Shown here in pieces: positions 15,096 to 18,402 of a DNA stretch of 64,000 nucleotides. This DNA comes from Rhizobiales bacterium SYSU XM002. Its GTDB lineage: Bacteria > Pseudomonadota > Alphaproteobacteria > Rhizobiales > Beijerinckiaceae. The stretch lies in assembly GCA_009846685.1 (NCBI GenBank), contig VWVY01000002.1, forward strand, positions 248,001 to 312,000, written 5' to 3'. Under the pieces are notes generated by a model, which did no database searches, had not been told where the DNA came from, and saw nothing but the letters and a program-made list of their open reading frames with translations. How positions within the stretch are numbered: position 1 is the first letter of the stretch; every line of letters starts with the position of its first letter. A program made the translations under genes and the position numbers.

Positions 15096-15872
15096 TCAGC
15101 GGAGACTGGCGCCCCATTTCCGCATCGTCGCATCGATCCAACCGCGCTGCGGCGCGACGCGCACGGCCTGCGCGATCGTGCCGCAACTCTGCGCGTTGCC
15201 GAATTTCTCCCGGCCGTAGACCACCCCGACCACCAACCCGCCGTCGATCACCGGCCCGCCGGAATCGCCGGTGCAGACCGCGAAATCCGAGAGATCGGCG
15301 TCGGGGCGCGTGCCGAGGCGCAAAAAGCGCGGATAGAGCTTCGGCAGAACCTGGACGCGCGCACTACGCAACTTGCCGGCGCTGGCCTCGTCGCGCTCGG
15401 CAGCGAGGCCGAACCCGGCGATGGTGCGACCGAGACCGATCTCGTGATCGCTCTCACCGCCGTCGATGGGCATCGGCTGGAACCGCGCCGGCAGGTCGCT
15501 GTCAAGGCGAACCAGCGCCATGTCGATCGACACCCGCGCGGAAGCCGAAAACCCTGGATTGATTGCCTTCGCGGCAATCCGTTGGAGCACATGGGACCCG
15601 TCTTCCGGGTAGGCCACCGCGACCTGCTTGTTGCCGGCGACGCAATGGGCTGCGGTCAGGATGACATTGCGAGCGACGACCGTGCCCGTGCAGGCACCAT
15701 GCTTGTTGCCTTGCCGCGACAGCACCATCACGAGGTGCGCCGTCAGCGCCGAATTGCCCGAAACGGCCGAACCGCCGAGCGCCTGCGCATGGCTGGGCAG
15801 CAGCAGGGTGGCAGCAGCCAGCAGGGCGGCGGAGAAAAACCGAACGAAACGTATTGTCACGGCGCGGACCAT
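15096..15872 (-). CDS. secreted trypsin-like serine protease, antisense inside the GTA cluster
   Basis: 258 residues. A signal peptide with hydrophobic core FFSAALLAAATLLLP and a cut site after AQA precedes an S1 protease domain: TAAHC (catalytic His), SIDMALVRL (Asp) and CTGDSGGPV (Ser). It would act in the periplasm or outside. It is transcribed against the GTA genes, ending 22 bases from the capsid stop and starting 67 bases from the connector start. The frame is open to 16256 but that part overlaps gp6. A genus-level GTA trait, a moron-type cargo gene, or a chance insertion are all possible. Confidence 0.85.
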   Translation of the reverse strand: MVRAVTIRFVRFFSAALLAAATLLLPSHAQALGGSAVSGNSALTAHLVMVLSRQGNKHGACTGTVVARNVILTAAHCVAGNKQVAVAYPEDGSHVLQRIAAKAINPGFSASARVSIDMALVRLDSDLPARFQPMPIDGGESDHEIGLGRTIAGFGLAAERDEASAGKLRSARVQVLPKLYPRFLRLGTRPDADLSDFAVCTGDSGGPVIDGGLVVGVVYGREKFGNAQSCGTIAQAVRVAPQRGWIDATMRKWGASLR

Positions 15873-15939
15873 CGCACCGGGACAGGTCACATGCAAGCGC
15901 CAATCGGATGCGCGAAACACCAGGAAATGGACTGCCAAG

Positions 15940-16503
15940 ATGATCCCTGTTCTTCTGGACGGCCCCACACTCGAACCCGTATCGCTTGCCGAAGCAAAGC
16001 TGTGGCTGAGACTCGACGGTCCTGAGGAAGATGATCTCGTCCGCGCTCTGATCGTTGCCGCCCGGTTATTGGTCGAAGCGGAGATCGGCCAGGTGCTCGT
16101 CGGCCAGAACTGGCGCCTCGTTGGCGATGAGTGGCCGCCGGGCGAGACGATCCCGGTGCGGGTCGGCAGCATCCTCGGCGTCAACGGCGGCAGGGTCTTC
16201 GATCGGAACGGCGCGGCCACAATTCTCGCGGCGGATCGTTTCACGGTTTTCCCCAACGCCGAGCCGCCTGCGATCTTGCCACTCGACCGGCCAGCGCCGG
16301 GCCGGCTGCTTTCTGGAATCGAAATCGACGTTCGACTTGGCTACGGCGAAGCCGCAAACGACGTGCCGGAAACGATCCGGCTGGCGATCCGCCGGCTGGT
16401 CACGCTGTGGTTCCACGAGCGGGACGATCCGCGGATCAGCGAAGCCGGACTGCCGCCCCAGATCCGGGCACTGCTGCGTCCCTTCCGCCGTATCCGGTTG
16501 TGA
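15940..16503 (+). CDS. GTA head-tail connector (gp6)
   Basis: 187 residues of the gp6-like head-tail connector, which binds under the portal. The start has LEPVSLAEAKLWLRLDGPEEDDLVRALIVAARLLVE, the classical N-terminal helix pair of these proteins, and the end has VPETIRLAIRRLVTLWFHERDD. The frame extends upstream to 15628 but that lies over the protease gene. No clear Shine-Dalgarno is seen before 15940. It is followed directly by the DUF3168 gene. Confidence 0.85.
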   Translation: MIPVLLDGPTLEPVSLAEAKLWLRLDGPEEDDLVRALIVAARLLVEAEIGQVLVGQNWRLVGDEWPPGETIPVRVGSILGVNGGRVFDRNGAATILAADRFTVFPNAEPPAILPLDRPAPGRLLSGIEIDVRLGYGEAANDVPETIRLAIRRLVTLWFHERDDPRISEAGLPPQIRALLRPFRRIRL

Positions 16504-16512
16504 GGCGGCGAA

Positions 16513-16926
16513 ATGAGCGAACCCATGCACCCTGTTCGCGCGCTTCAGGAAGCGCTCCGGAGCCACCTCGCGGCGCAACCTGCCGTCGTGGCCATTCTCG
16601 GTCAGGCGATCTACGAAACCGCCCCGCGCGGTGTGAAGCCGCCCATTGTCACGTTCGGCGATGCCAGTATCCGCGACGCAGGGTCGATCGGGAGCGAGGC
16701 GGTTACGGTCGAGTTCGATATCGTTGCCCAAGCGGCGGAACGCAGCACACATTCGGCGCTCGATATCCTTTCCGAGATCGAGGCGGCGTTCCGATCGCCG
16801 ATACCCGAACCGGCCAATCACCACCTTGTTTCAATCGAGATCCGCCAAGGGGCCGTGCGGCATGACGCCTCCCGCAATCTGACCCGCGCGAGCCTCAGGC
16901 TTCGCGCCTTTCTCGAACCGCTCTGA
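16513..16926 (+). CDS. GTA tail terminator protein, DUF3168 (gp8)
   Basis: 137 residues of DUF3168, which caps the tail tube at the head junction. It begins with HPVRALQEALRSHLAAQPAVVAILG and has PPIVTFGDASIRD, VEFDIVAQAAERSTHSALDILSEIEAAF and a final TRASLRLRAFLEPL. It lies 9 bases after gp6. In the model GTA a head-closure (stopper) gene, gp7, is placed between these two; it is absent here. Confidence 0.9.
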   Translation: MSEPMHPVRALQEALRSHLAAQPAVVAILGQAIYETAPRGVKPPIVTFGDASIRDAGSIGSEAVTVEFDIVAQAAERSTHSALDILSEIEAAFRSPIPEPANHHLVSIEIRQGAVRHDASRNLTRASLRLRAFLEPL

Positions 16927-16937
16927 AGGAAACGGAC

Positions 16938-17348
16938 ATGGCAGCTCAACGCGGCAAGGACATTCTTCTCAAGCTCGATGACGGAACCGGGACCTTCGTT
17001 TCCGTCGCCGGGCTTCGGACGCGCAAGTTTGCGCTCAATGCGGAGATCGTCGACGTGACCCACAGCGAATCCACCGGGCGTTGGCGCGAACTGCTCGACG
17101 GGGCGGGCGTCCGCCGAGCCAGTGTGACCGGTGCCGGCATTTTCCGCGACGCCAATTCCGATGCGCTGGTCCGGCAGGTGTTTTTCGACGGACTGATCCG
17201 CGACTGGCAGCTGGTCCTGCCGGATTTCGGCACCATTTCAGGCGCTTTTCAGGTCACCGGCCTCGAATATCGGGGCGAACACGCTGGCGAAATGAGTTTC
17301 GAGATGGCGCTCGAAAGCGCGGGCGCGCTCGCCTTTTTGGCGGCTTGA
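16938..17348 (+). CDS. GTA major tail tube protein (gp9)
   Basis: 136 residues, the tube subunit that polymerises around the tape measure. Typical elements are AAQRGKDILLKLDDGTG at the N-terminus, FALNAEIVDVTHSESTGRWRELLDGAGVRRASVTGAGIF and a final GEMSFEMALESAGALAFLAA. GAAGGAAACGGAC precedes the ATG. The gene is tightly packed between gp8 and gp10. Confidence 0.93.
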   Translation: MAAQRGKDILLKLDDGTGTFVSVAGLRTRKFALNAEIVDVTHSESTGRWRELLDGAGVRRASVTGAGIFRDANSDALVRQVFFDGLIRDWQLVLPDFGTISGAFQVTGLEYRGEHAGEMSFEMALESAGALAFLAA

Positions 17349-17352
17349 TCCG

Positions 17353-17679
17353 ATGACCAACCGTCATCGCGCCGAAAAGACCATCGAGATCGGCGGTCGT
17401 CGCCTCGTGCTGCGCCTGAGTCTCCGGGCCCTCGCGGAGCTCGAAGCAGTCTTCGATGTCGACGGGATCGAGGCCCTCGGCATGCGTCTGGCGAAAGGAG
17501 GGCTGCGGACCGAGCATCTGACCCGCATCGTTGGCGCGCTTGCGCGCGGCAGCGGCGATGGGATCGCTGACAGCGAGATTGCCGTTCTGATCGATACGGG
17601 TGACCTGCCCGACATCATGGATGCCATTGCATCCATCTTCGCGTCCGGGTTCGCCGGAGCGCCGGCAAACCCTCGCTAG
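17353..17679 (+). CDS. GTA tail assembly chaperone 1 (gp10, GTA_gp10 family)
   Basis: 108 residues. The pattern IEIGGRRLVLRLSLRALAELEAVF and ADSEIAVLIDTGDLPDIMDAIASIF matches the GTA gp10 family, the first tail-assembly chaperone. It starts 4 bases after the tail tube stop. Its last codons are GCA AAC CCT CGC TAG, which contain the slippery heptamer described separately. Ribosomes that slip there would make a longer product of about 182 residues together with gp10.1. Confidence 0.9.
   Translation: MTNRHRAEKTIEIGGRRLVLRLSLRALAELEAVFDVDGIEALGMRLAKGGLRTEHLTRIVGALARGSGDGIADSEIAVLIDTGDLPDIMDAIASIFASGFAGAPANPR
17667..17673 (+). promoter_or_regulatory. candidate -1 frameshift slippery site A AAC CCT
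   Basis: In the gp10 frame the bases read A AAC CCT, an exact X XXY YYZ heptamer with X = A and Y = C, two codons before the gp10 stop. After tandem slippage the frame continues as TCG CTA GCC through the second chaperone to 17900. The motif type is not among the most efficient bacterial heptamers, which usually have A or T in Y. Confidence 0.6.
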
Positions 17680-17900
17680 CCGCAAGGAGCCCGGACGAGC
17701 GTGGTTTTCCCTGGCGGGAAATCATCGCGTTTGGCCTCGGTACCTTGCGGCTGCCCCCCGATGCGTTCTGGTCGCTGAGCATCCCGGAACTGCTCGCCAT
17801 CGTCGAAGCGGCTTATGGCCGCGATCTGCCGATGCGGTCGATGGCGTCGGATGATCTCGCTGCACTCATCGCCCGTTATCCGGATCAAGCATCCCATTAG
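17673..17900 (+). CDS. GTA tail assembly chaperone 2 (gp10.1), no start codon; -1 frame of gp10
   Basis: 75 codons in the -1 frame of gp10. The core FPWREIIAFGLGTLRLPPDAFW matches the GTA/phage TAC family (Phage_TAC_6 type), whose members pair with gp10. The frame is open from 17604 after a TGA at 17601, but it contains no ATG, GTG or TTG before that core. Separate initiation is therefore unlikely, and expression as a gp10-gp10.1 fusion by slippage is the natural reading, as for the G/GT pair of phage lambda. A sequencing error or a decayed start is the alternative. The stop TAG at 17898 is followed directly by GGAGG for the tape measure gene. Confidence 0.72.
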   Translation, partial: SLAARSPDERGFPWREIIAFGLGTLRLPPDAFWSLSIPELLAIVEAAYGRDLPMRSMASDDLAALIARYPDQASH

Positions 17901-17913
17901 GAGGACTGACTTC

Positions 17914-18402
17914 ATGGCTGACGACATTTTCGGCGAAACCGACGCGCTCGATGGTCTCTCGGCGCGGCTCTCACGTCTCGATGAGATCACCCAACAATTC
18001 GGCAAGTCCCTCTCGCGGGCACTGGCGACCGGCATCGCGCAGGGTCGCAGCTTCGAGACGATCCTCCAGACGCTCGGCCAGAAGCTGATCGAGATCTCAC
18101 TCCGGGCGGCGTTCCAGCCGCTGGAGAATGCCCTCACGGGATCGATCTCGAACCTCTTCGGCAGTCTGACGCGCGGCTTCACCGGAACCGGCGGCCTGTT
18201 CGCCGACATGTTCGGAGGCGGTGGCATGTCCGGCGCTGGCCTGTTTGGCGCACCGGCGCGGGGCTCGTCGATGGGCGCGGGGCAGGGCGTCTCCATCACG
18301 ATGCATGTTTCGACACCGGACGCGGACAGCTTCCGGCGTTCGGAATCGCAGGTCAGTTCCGCCCTGGCGCGCGCGGTAGCGCGTGGCCAGCGCAGTCTCT
18401 GA
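17914..18402 (+). CDS. GTA tape measure protein (gp11), very short
   Basis: 162 residues. Contains DALDGLSARLSRLDEITQQFGKSLSRAL and LGQKLIEISLRAAFQPLENALTGSISNLF, then a glycine-rich part and a C-terminus ending in SQVSSALARAVARGQRSL, as in GTA tape measure proteins. Phage tape measures set tail length in proportion to their size; this one is shorter than the roughly 220 residues I recall for the Rhodobacter GTA, so a short tail is expected. GGAGG lies 10 bases upstream of the ATG. Confidence 0.88.
   Translation: MADDIFGETDALDGLSARLSRLDEITQQFGKSLSRALATGIAQGRSFETILQTLGQKLIEISLRAAFQPLENALTGSISNLFGSLTRGFTGTGGLFADMFGGGGMSGAGLFGAPARGSSMGAGQGVSITMHVSTPDADSFRRSESQVSSALARAVARGQRSL

Follow-up and report, generated by a model that had tools for sequence, protein, structure and literature searches.

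Tail assembly chaperone genes of RcGTA-like gene transfer agents are probably joined by a −1 ribosomal frameshift at a C_CCU slip site followed by a covarying RNA stem

How is a tail gene translated when its reading frame offers no start codon? The question is raised by gp10.1, the second of two overlapping genes in a 64,000-nucleotide stretch of DNA, the whole of which we call the window. A sequence-only reading had proposed that gp10 and gp10.1 are the tail assembly chaperones of a gene transfer agent (GTA) and that ribosomes reach gp10.1 by slipping back one base near the end of gp10. The genes and sites concerned are these.

16938..17348, plus strand: gp9, major tail tube protein, the upstream neighbour (PF06199, E 6.7e-44; TIGR02126, E 1.4e-32)
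17353..17679, plus strand: gp10, 108 aa, the predicted zero-frame product of the frameshift pair, with its ATG at 17353
17604..17900, plus strand: gp10.1 open frame (−1), preceded by TGA at 17601-17603 and predicted to be translated from 17673 after slippage
17667..17673, plus strand: slippery heptamer A AAC CCT in the gp10 frame, kept at the junction in relatives
17677..17679, plus strand: gp10 stop codon TAG, with the heptamer one codon (CGC) earlier
17706..17897, plus strand: gp10.1 conserved core (PF09550 Phage_TAC_6, E 1e-14)
17914..18402, plus strand: gp11, short tape measure protein, the downstream neighbour (NF058675 RcGTA_tape, E 2.6e-19)

On its profile matches the cluster reads as an RcGTA-like gene transfer agent, a head-tail cluster with GTA-specific proteins, in agreement with the earlier identification. 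The GTA_megatron model scores 1552 bits against a cut-off of 800, and the cluster also encodes an Rcc01695-type distal tail protein, a baseplate hub, an NlpC/P60 protein, an HK97 capsid, a portal and a protease. The RcGTA_tape match of gp11 (69.8 bits) falls under its 220-bit cut-off, the terminase match is likewise under its own, and 16513-16923 has no match in the profile search of the cluster. Both genes fall in tail chaperone families, as their proposed identity requires: gp10 scores 52.4 bits with Pfam PF11836 Phage_TAC_11 (curated cut-off 27.8) and gp10.1 scores 55.1 bits with PF09550 Phage_TAC_6 (curated cut-off 23.4). With the NCBIfam model TIGR02216, the rcc01693 family, gp10.1 reaches 49.7 bits, under the cut-off of 56.1. 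Against the sequences of solved structures gp10 has no match and gp10.1 matches three chains only, unrelated or designed, and a fold search with gp10.1 returned no significant match. Two further features of the cluster may be recorded. A trypsin-like serine protease gene (15096-16256, minus strand; PF00089, E 2.1e-20) sits between the capsid and connector genes, on the opposite strand. The tape measure protein has 162 aa as compared with the 220 positions of the RcGTA tape model, which would predict a shorter tail.

The arrangement in the window has the form of a lambda G/GT-type frameshift: an overlapping pair of frames lies between the tail tube and tape measure genes, the downstream frame is −1 and without a start of its own, and an X_XXY_YYZ heptamer, A AAC CCT, is read in the gp10 frame. 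The −1 frame, the missing start and the heptamer had been claimed beforehand and can be read directly from the letters. From the opening of the gp10.1 frame to its core no codon is ATG, GTG, TTG, CTG, ATT or ATA; the first TTG of the frame is at 17745, within the core, and the single near-cognate start, ATC at 17631, lies deep in gp10. Slippage at the heptamer would give a product of 107 + 75 = 182 residues, the length predicted earlier.

To set the locus among its relatives we drew on three genome searches covering 61, 297 and 289 genomes, with matches in 43, 189 and 40 of them, respectively. Loci were taken from 30 of the 43 matched genomes in the first search and from the best 30 each of the 189 and 40 in the others, plus 80 stretches among the matches listed in the 297-genome search and three phage records. 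For the named relatives, 80 of 105 were kept; the peptide pattern used to find them contains L-R-L, and they therefore give no evidence for conservation of L-R-L itself. Both genes are present in 248 of the 250 loci examined (in L165 and L240 gp10 or gp10.1 was not found and they were left out, as were L001 and L154, which are copies of the window), and 235 are distinct around the junction after removal of 13 identical ones. A start was scored when ATG or GTG occurred within the stretch that begins 40 nt upstream of the gp10 stop and ends at the core, and the junction heptamer count covered sites up to 100 nt before that stop.

The −1 frame of gp10.1 is nearly general among the 235 distinct loci (220, against +1 in 9 and 0 in 6). 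No ATG or GTG occurs near the junction in 137 of the 220 −1-frame loci, 109 of which also lack TTG, and the missing start goes with the slip site: a canonical heptamer in the slippage register is present in 98 of the 137 but in only 16 of the 83 with an ATG or GTG (Fisher p 3e-14). When NNC_CCT sites are admitted beside canonical heptamers the figures become 133 of 137 and 23 of 83. TTG occurs in 28 of the 137, at −4 in 27 of these 28; with TTG counted as a start, canonical heptamers are found in 85/109 loci without a start versus 29/111 with one, and heptamer or NNC_CCT in 105/109 versus 51/111. By register, 159 heptamers fall in the slippage register versus 20 and 11 in the others, the commonest in register being AAACCCT (44), CCCTTTC (33), TTTCCCT (24) and GGGAAAG (14). 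A AAC CCT stands at 44 of the 220 −1-frame junctions versus 2 of 16,388 codon positions in gp10 bodies, and is thus above chance. Three same-genus loci (L009, L010 and L021) also carry A AAC CCT, each at over 100 nt upstream of the stop and hence outside the main count. In the phage records gp10 had no match and the gp10.1 core had five weak ones, three of which have AAACCCT (L251), GGGAAAC (L250) and CCCTTTA (L252).

Could gp10.1 simply be a decayed gene, or its frame break a sequencing error? A missing start codon, as in the window, is what either would leave behind. Yet 133 distinct loci share the −1 frame, the lack of ATG or GTG and a slip site, the core residues of gp10.1 are kept across 16 diverse sequences, and its Pfam score lies above the cut-off; decay or error is refuted by this conservation, and we rate its probability as practically nil. 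The sequence-only reading had also held that it would be refuted by relatives in which gp10.1 has an ordinary ATG and the heptamer is missing. Such relatives do exist, 67 of the 220 −1-frame loci having ATG or GTG without a canonical heptamer, as do most loci labelled Rhodobacterales, but they belong to a separate set of lineages, which shows two alternative states and not an error in this genome.

The relatives also refine the description of the site. X_XXY_YYZ is absent from the whole overlap in 40 of the 63 NNC_CCT-class loci, so that slippage of two tRNAs at once cannot be the full mechanism in these loci. The invariant part of the site reads as C_CCU rather than as the full X_XXY_YYZ heptamer. 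In 25 loci (L039, L047, L056 and others) C CCT TTC coincides with the conserved P-F-P-W codons of the core itself, and in this class we find no linker and no stem of the kind described below.

Alignment of 101 loci on NNC_CCT (19 with ATG or GTG) displays a G-C-C-G-C-A-G-like element five bases past CCCT, beyond the gp10 stop in many loci. This arm pairs with the distant G-x-L-R-L codons of gp10.1, forming a stem that begins 4-5 nt past the slip site. In the window the elements are as follows.

17677..17753, plus strand: predicted stimulatory hairpin, with −46.1 kcal/mol for the fold of 17674-17753
17678..17691, plus strand: conserved stem, 5′ arm, AGCCGCAAGGAGCC; the 3′ arm covaries with it, and its GCCG element, five nucleotides past CCCT, is conserved
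17739..17753, plus strand: 3′ arm of the stem, the gp10.1 codons G-T-L-R-L (13/14 paired in fixed register in the window)

The earlier suggestion that a downstream RNA structure may help has thus gained substance, with 17674-17753 folding at z −5.63 (0/200 shuffles as good) and a covarying stem in relatives. The same hairpin forms in longer folds, at z −4.33 for 17630-17760 (0/200 as good) and at only −2.73 for 17660-17760 (3/200 as good). Segments of 50 nt downstream of the site show little or no excess folding, the signal needing the distant 3′ arm.

We examined the stem across loci by pairing a 14-nt 5′ arm with the G-x-L-R-L codons in fixed register, using each locus's own arms or arms swapped between loci. 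Own arms give the better duplex energy in the AAACCCT class (−23.4 vs −18.7, n=38, p 3e-7; own better in 33/38) and in the NNCCCT class (−20.5 vs −16.5, n=63, p 8e-7; own better in 45/63), whereas in the start-codon controls the arms do not covary (−10.3 for both, n=58, p 0.58). No stem was found in the CCCTTTC-at-core class (own vs swapped, p 0.20, n=25) or in the 12 loci of the GGGAAAG class. At the codon that varies, positions 8, 9 and 10 are paired in 0.97, 0.89 and 0.89 of 36 cluster representatives, compared with 0.49, 0.64 and 0.48 for swapped partners; pairing was a criterion in the choice of these representatives, and the unselected tests therefore carry more weight. Among 75 loci chosen by their 5′ side alone, own arms form 10.79 of 13 pairs vs 9.44 for swapped arms (p 3e-9), 57 reach at least 10/13 pairs, and the predicted folds of 59 contain at least 8 of the 13. 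Whole-region folding of the same 75 gives a mean z of −3.54, with 55 under −2, as against −0.39 and 4 under −2 for the 58 start-codon controls. Changes at positions 8, 9 and 10 that are independent on the tree are concordant in 3.3, 2.4 and 1.6 pairs on average vs 0.0 in the opposite sense; this independent-pairs test has the right direction and too few supported pairs for significance, and the partner is mostly unchanged for positions 11 and 12. In L030, L174 and L195 the slip site and stem coexist with ATG or GTG close to the stop, and loci of this type are possibly intermediates between the slip and start modes.

Upstream of the slip site lies a further element.

17655..17661, plus strand: Shine-Dalgarno-like (SD-like) stretch, GGAG at 17656-17659, ending 7 nt before the heptamer

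Its best anti-SD duplex in the window is moderate (−5.8 kcal/mol), and in relatives the stretch lies 3-14 nt upstream of the slip site. It is stronger than under synonymous resampling in four classes of slip loci, AAACCCT among them (p 1.5e-7), the other three giving p 1e-6, 1.3e-5 and 2.4e-4, while the effect is small in start-codon loci (p 5e-3). Taken locus by locus, it mostly reflects amino-acid make-up (in the larger classes the median per-locus p is about 0.3 to 0.4); we retain it as a weaker line of support from sequence, since it beats synonymous resampling over all loci. Together with the stem it supplies the conserved stimulatory RNA signals of a lambda G/GT-type frameshift.

A Shine-Dalgarno-like stretch so close to the junction could instead be the ribosome binding site of an internal start of gp10.1, at TTG or a non-standard codon. 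Its spacing in relatives would suit this, and 61 of the 133 slip-site loci without ATG or GTG do have TTG or a near-cognate codon, but the other 72, namely the window and 71 more, lack TTG, CTG, ATT, ATC and ATA alike from −40 to the core. The stretch moreover aims at the slip heptamer, which in the −1 frame is read as AAA CCC, and an internal start would leave CCCT and the stem unexplained; we consider it very improbable. Much the same low probability attaches to termination at the gp10 stop followed by nearby re-initiation without a proper start codon. Such translational coupling would draw on the closeness of the gp10 stop to the site and on the ATGA, GTGA or TTGA overlaps, typical of coupling, that occur in related lineages; in the window, however, there is no start codon within reach. 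In L009, L010 and L021, moreover, the gp10 frame extends 73 nt into the gp10.1 core, so that two frames cover the beginning of the core and a ribosome terminating there would already be past part of what has to be made. Slippage by RNA polymerase instead of the ribosome would yield the same fusion, but the runs of A and of C at the site are just three bases long each, and a conserved RNA stem and SD-like stretch are known stimulators of the ribosome; this explanation is less probable still.

The reading that remains is programmed −1 ribosomal frameshifting, and the tRNAs encoded in the genome, tRNA-Pro GGG, CGG and UGG together with tRNA-Asn GUU, allow it to be put in concrete terms. On AAC_CCU both tRNAs can re-pair on AAA_CCC, and when tRNA-Pro GGG slips from CCU to CCC it trades a G-U pair for a G-C pair. 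In NNC_CCT relatives such as those with CGC_CCT the first tRNA cannot re-pair well, and a single tRNA-Pro slip beside a slow codon or stop is therefore the likelier route. The sequences show the frame, the missing start, the conserved site and the conserved, covarying stem; slippage with its efficiency and the function of the two products we infer, and the course of events would be the following. Ribosomes translating gp10 would reach C_CCU (here A_AAC_CCU) beside the gp10 stop, with the SD-like stretch behind them and the long stem 4-5 nt ahead. A minority would re-pair on AAA_CCC and continue in the −1 frame, producing the 182-aa gp10-gp10.1 fusion, and the remainder would stop after 108 aa, making gp10 alone. 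The 3′ arm of the stem is built into the conserved G-x-L-R-L codons of gp10.1. If the pair works as in lambda, the role of gp10 would be to coat the tape measure protein and that of the fusion's C-terminal part to recruit the tube protein, and tails would depend on both products.

We scanned the IMG/VR viral contigs with a 19-base pattern, AAACCCTN5GCCGCAG, for which 120 matches were listed (L253-L372). At least 57 sites, 57 of the 120 matches listed, are gp10/gp10.1 junctions, all 57 in the −1 frame (40 of the first 80 matches listed are junctions); in the other 63 of the 120 neither gene is present, and these are probably chance matches. GTA clusters may thus be filed there as viruses. Removal of three duplicates leaves 54 distinct junctions, five of them already in the first set, and thus 49 new. 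All 54 distinct matches listed are in register and 12 have ATG or GTG. The seven searched bases are all paired with the L-R-L codons in 53 of these 54 and in 48 of the 49 new matches listed, and at the six positions that were not part of the search the 49 form 4.90 own vs 3.42 swapped pairs (p 1.6e-9). The arginine of L-R-L is CGG in 47 of the 47 new matches listed that have L-R-L, as compared to 22/44 start-codon controls with L-R-L.

The slip arrangement is conserved across the Hyphomicrobiales and partly beyond. Ten of the 11 named loci labelled Rhodobacterales have an ATG or GTG, placed at −4 or +3, and under the loose rule used for the tree a possible slip site is present as well in three of the ten; the eleventh (L239, labelled Rhodovulum) has a slip site and stem instead of a start. 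Class-level loci (L141-L169) contain CCCTTTC, GGGAAAG or starts, and none of them reaches at least 10/13 stem pairs. On a rough tree of 234 rows, based on about 170 residues, slip sites alone occur in 135 rows, starts alone in 67, both in 31 and neither in one, and slip and start modes change at least 22 times.

We conclude, with a probability of roughly 0.93, that RcGTA-like elements use lambda G/GT-type −1 programmed frameshifting, gp10 and gp10.1 being the G and T halves. To a more specific proposal we give even odds: that the −1 slip centres on a single tRNA-Pro at C_CCU, often without a two-tRNA heptamer, that it is driven by a long-range stem set partly in the codons of a conserved helix, and that GTA lineages have repeatedly changed between this design and split genes with stop-start overlaps. 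If it holds, the codons of the product's conserved helix are also the 3′ half of the stem, and protein and RNA signal constrain each other; we found no description in the literature of this recoding design, a single tRNA-Pro slip with a stem in the product's own codons. GTAs are thought to be domesticated phages. Conservation of the frameshift and its RNA stimulator over many Hyphomicrobiales genera indicates that the making of both chaperone forms is still under selection, and hence that GTA tails are probably still built. For annotation, the result corrects a gene, gp10.1, that gene finders cannot start. Recoding research gains a natural series of sites (AAACCCT, NNCCCT, CCCTTTC and GGGAAAG, with and without the stem) in which the start-codon loci are built-in controls.

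We met no description of a frameshift in RcGTA-like g10/g10.1 among the titles and openings of abstracts listed, a coverage from which subscription papers mostly fall away, and the word frameshift is absent from the main texts of PMC7296036, PMC11409702, PMC9765227, PMC6821227, PMC9836097, PMC11150451 and PMC7947584. PMC8601537 mentions that most of the R. capsulatus phages it treats have the frameshift customary for tail chaperones; this concerns the phages and not the GTA.

The nearest design is that of lambda and HK97-type phages, whose tail assembly chaperone frameshift was reportedly described by Xu, Hendrix and Duda in 2004. For lambda G/GT it is outlined in a passage of PMC5009743. Some gp10/gp10.1 relatives have GGGAAAG (14 occurrences), like lambda with its G_GGA_AAG, whereas the pair in the window belongs to a domesticated, host-encoded GTA, has the slip core C_CCU, and is followed by a long-range stem with its 3′ arm in conserved protein codons. 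The alphaproteobacterial phage phiCbK of Caulobacter likewise has a −1 chaperone frameshift before its tape measure gene, as told in part of PMC3556154, at AAAAAAC (GGGAAAC in phage Colossus); phiCbK is a free phage, whereas the AAACCCT of the window lies in a GTA. For a proposed Wolbachia GTA of the WO type, a passage of PMC10299305 names the tail chaperones gpG and gpGT, after the lambda pair; that element is a phage WO derivative and not RcGTA-like, and the frameshift discussed there is +1, in the hydrolase region. RcGTA of Rhodobacter capsulatus is homologous to the window in gene order and families (g10, g10.1/g10.5). In the part of PMC11409702 that names them, g10 is tail chaperone 1 and g10.5 tail chaperone 2. 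Compared by this printed description, RcGTA has two chaperones where the window would have a frameshift pair, and ATG or GTG starts stand in 10 of the 11 Rhodobacterales-labelled loci; a programmed frameshift may explain why two genes are printed for the R. capsulatus model.
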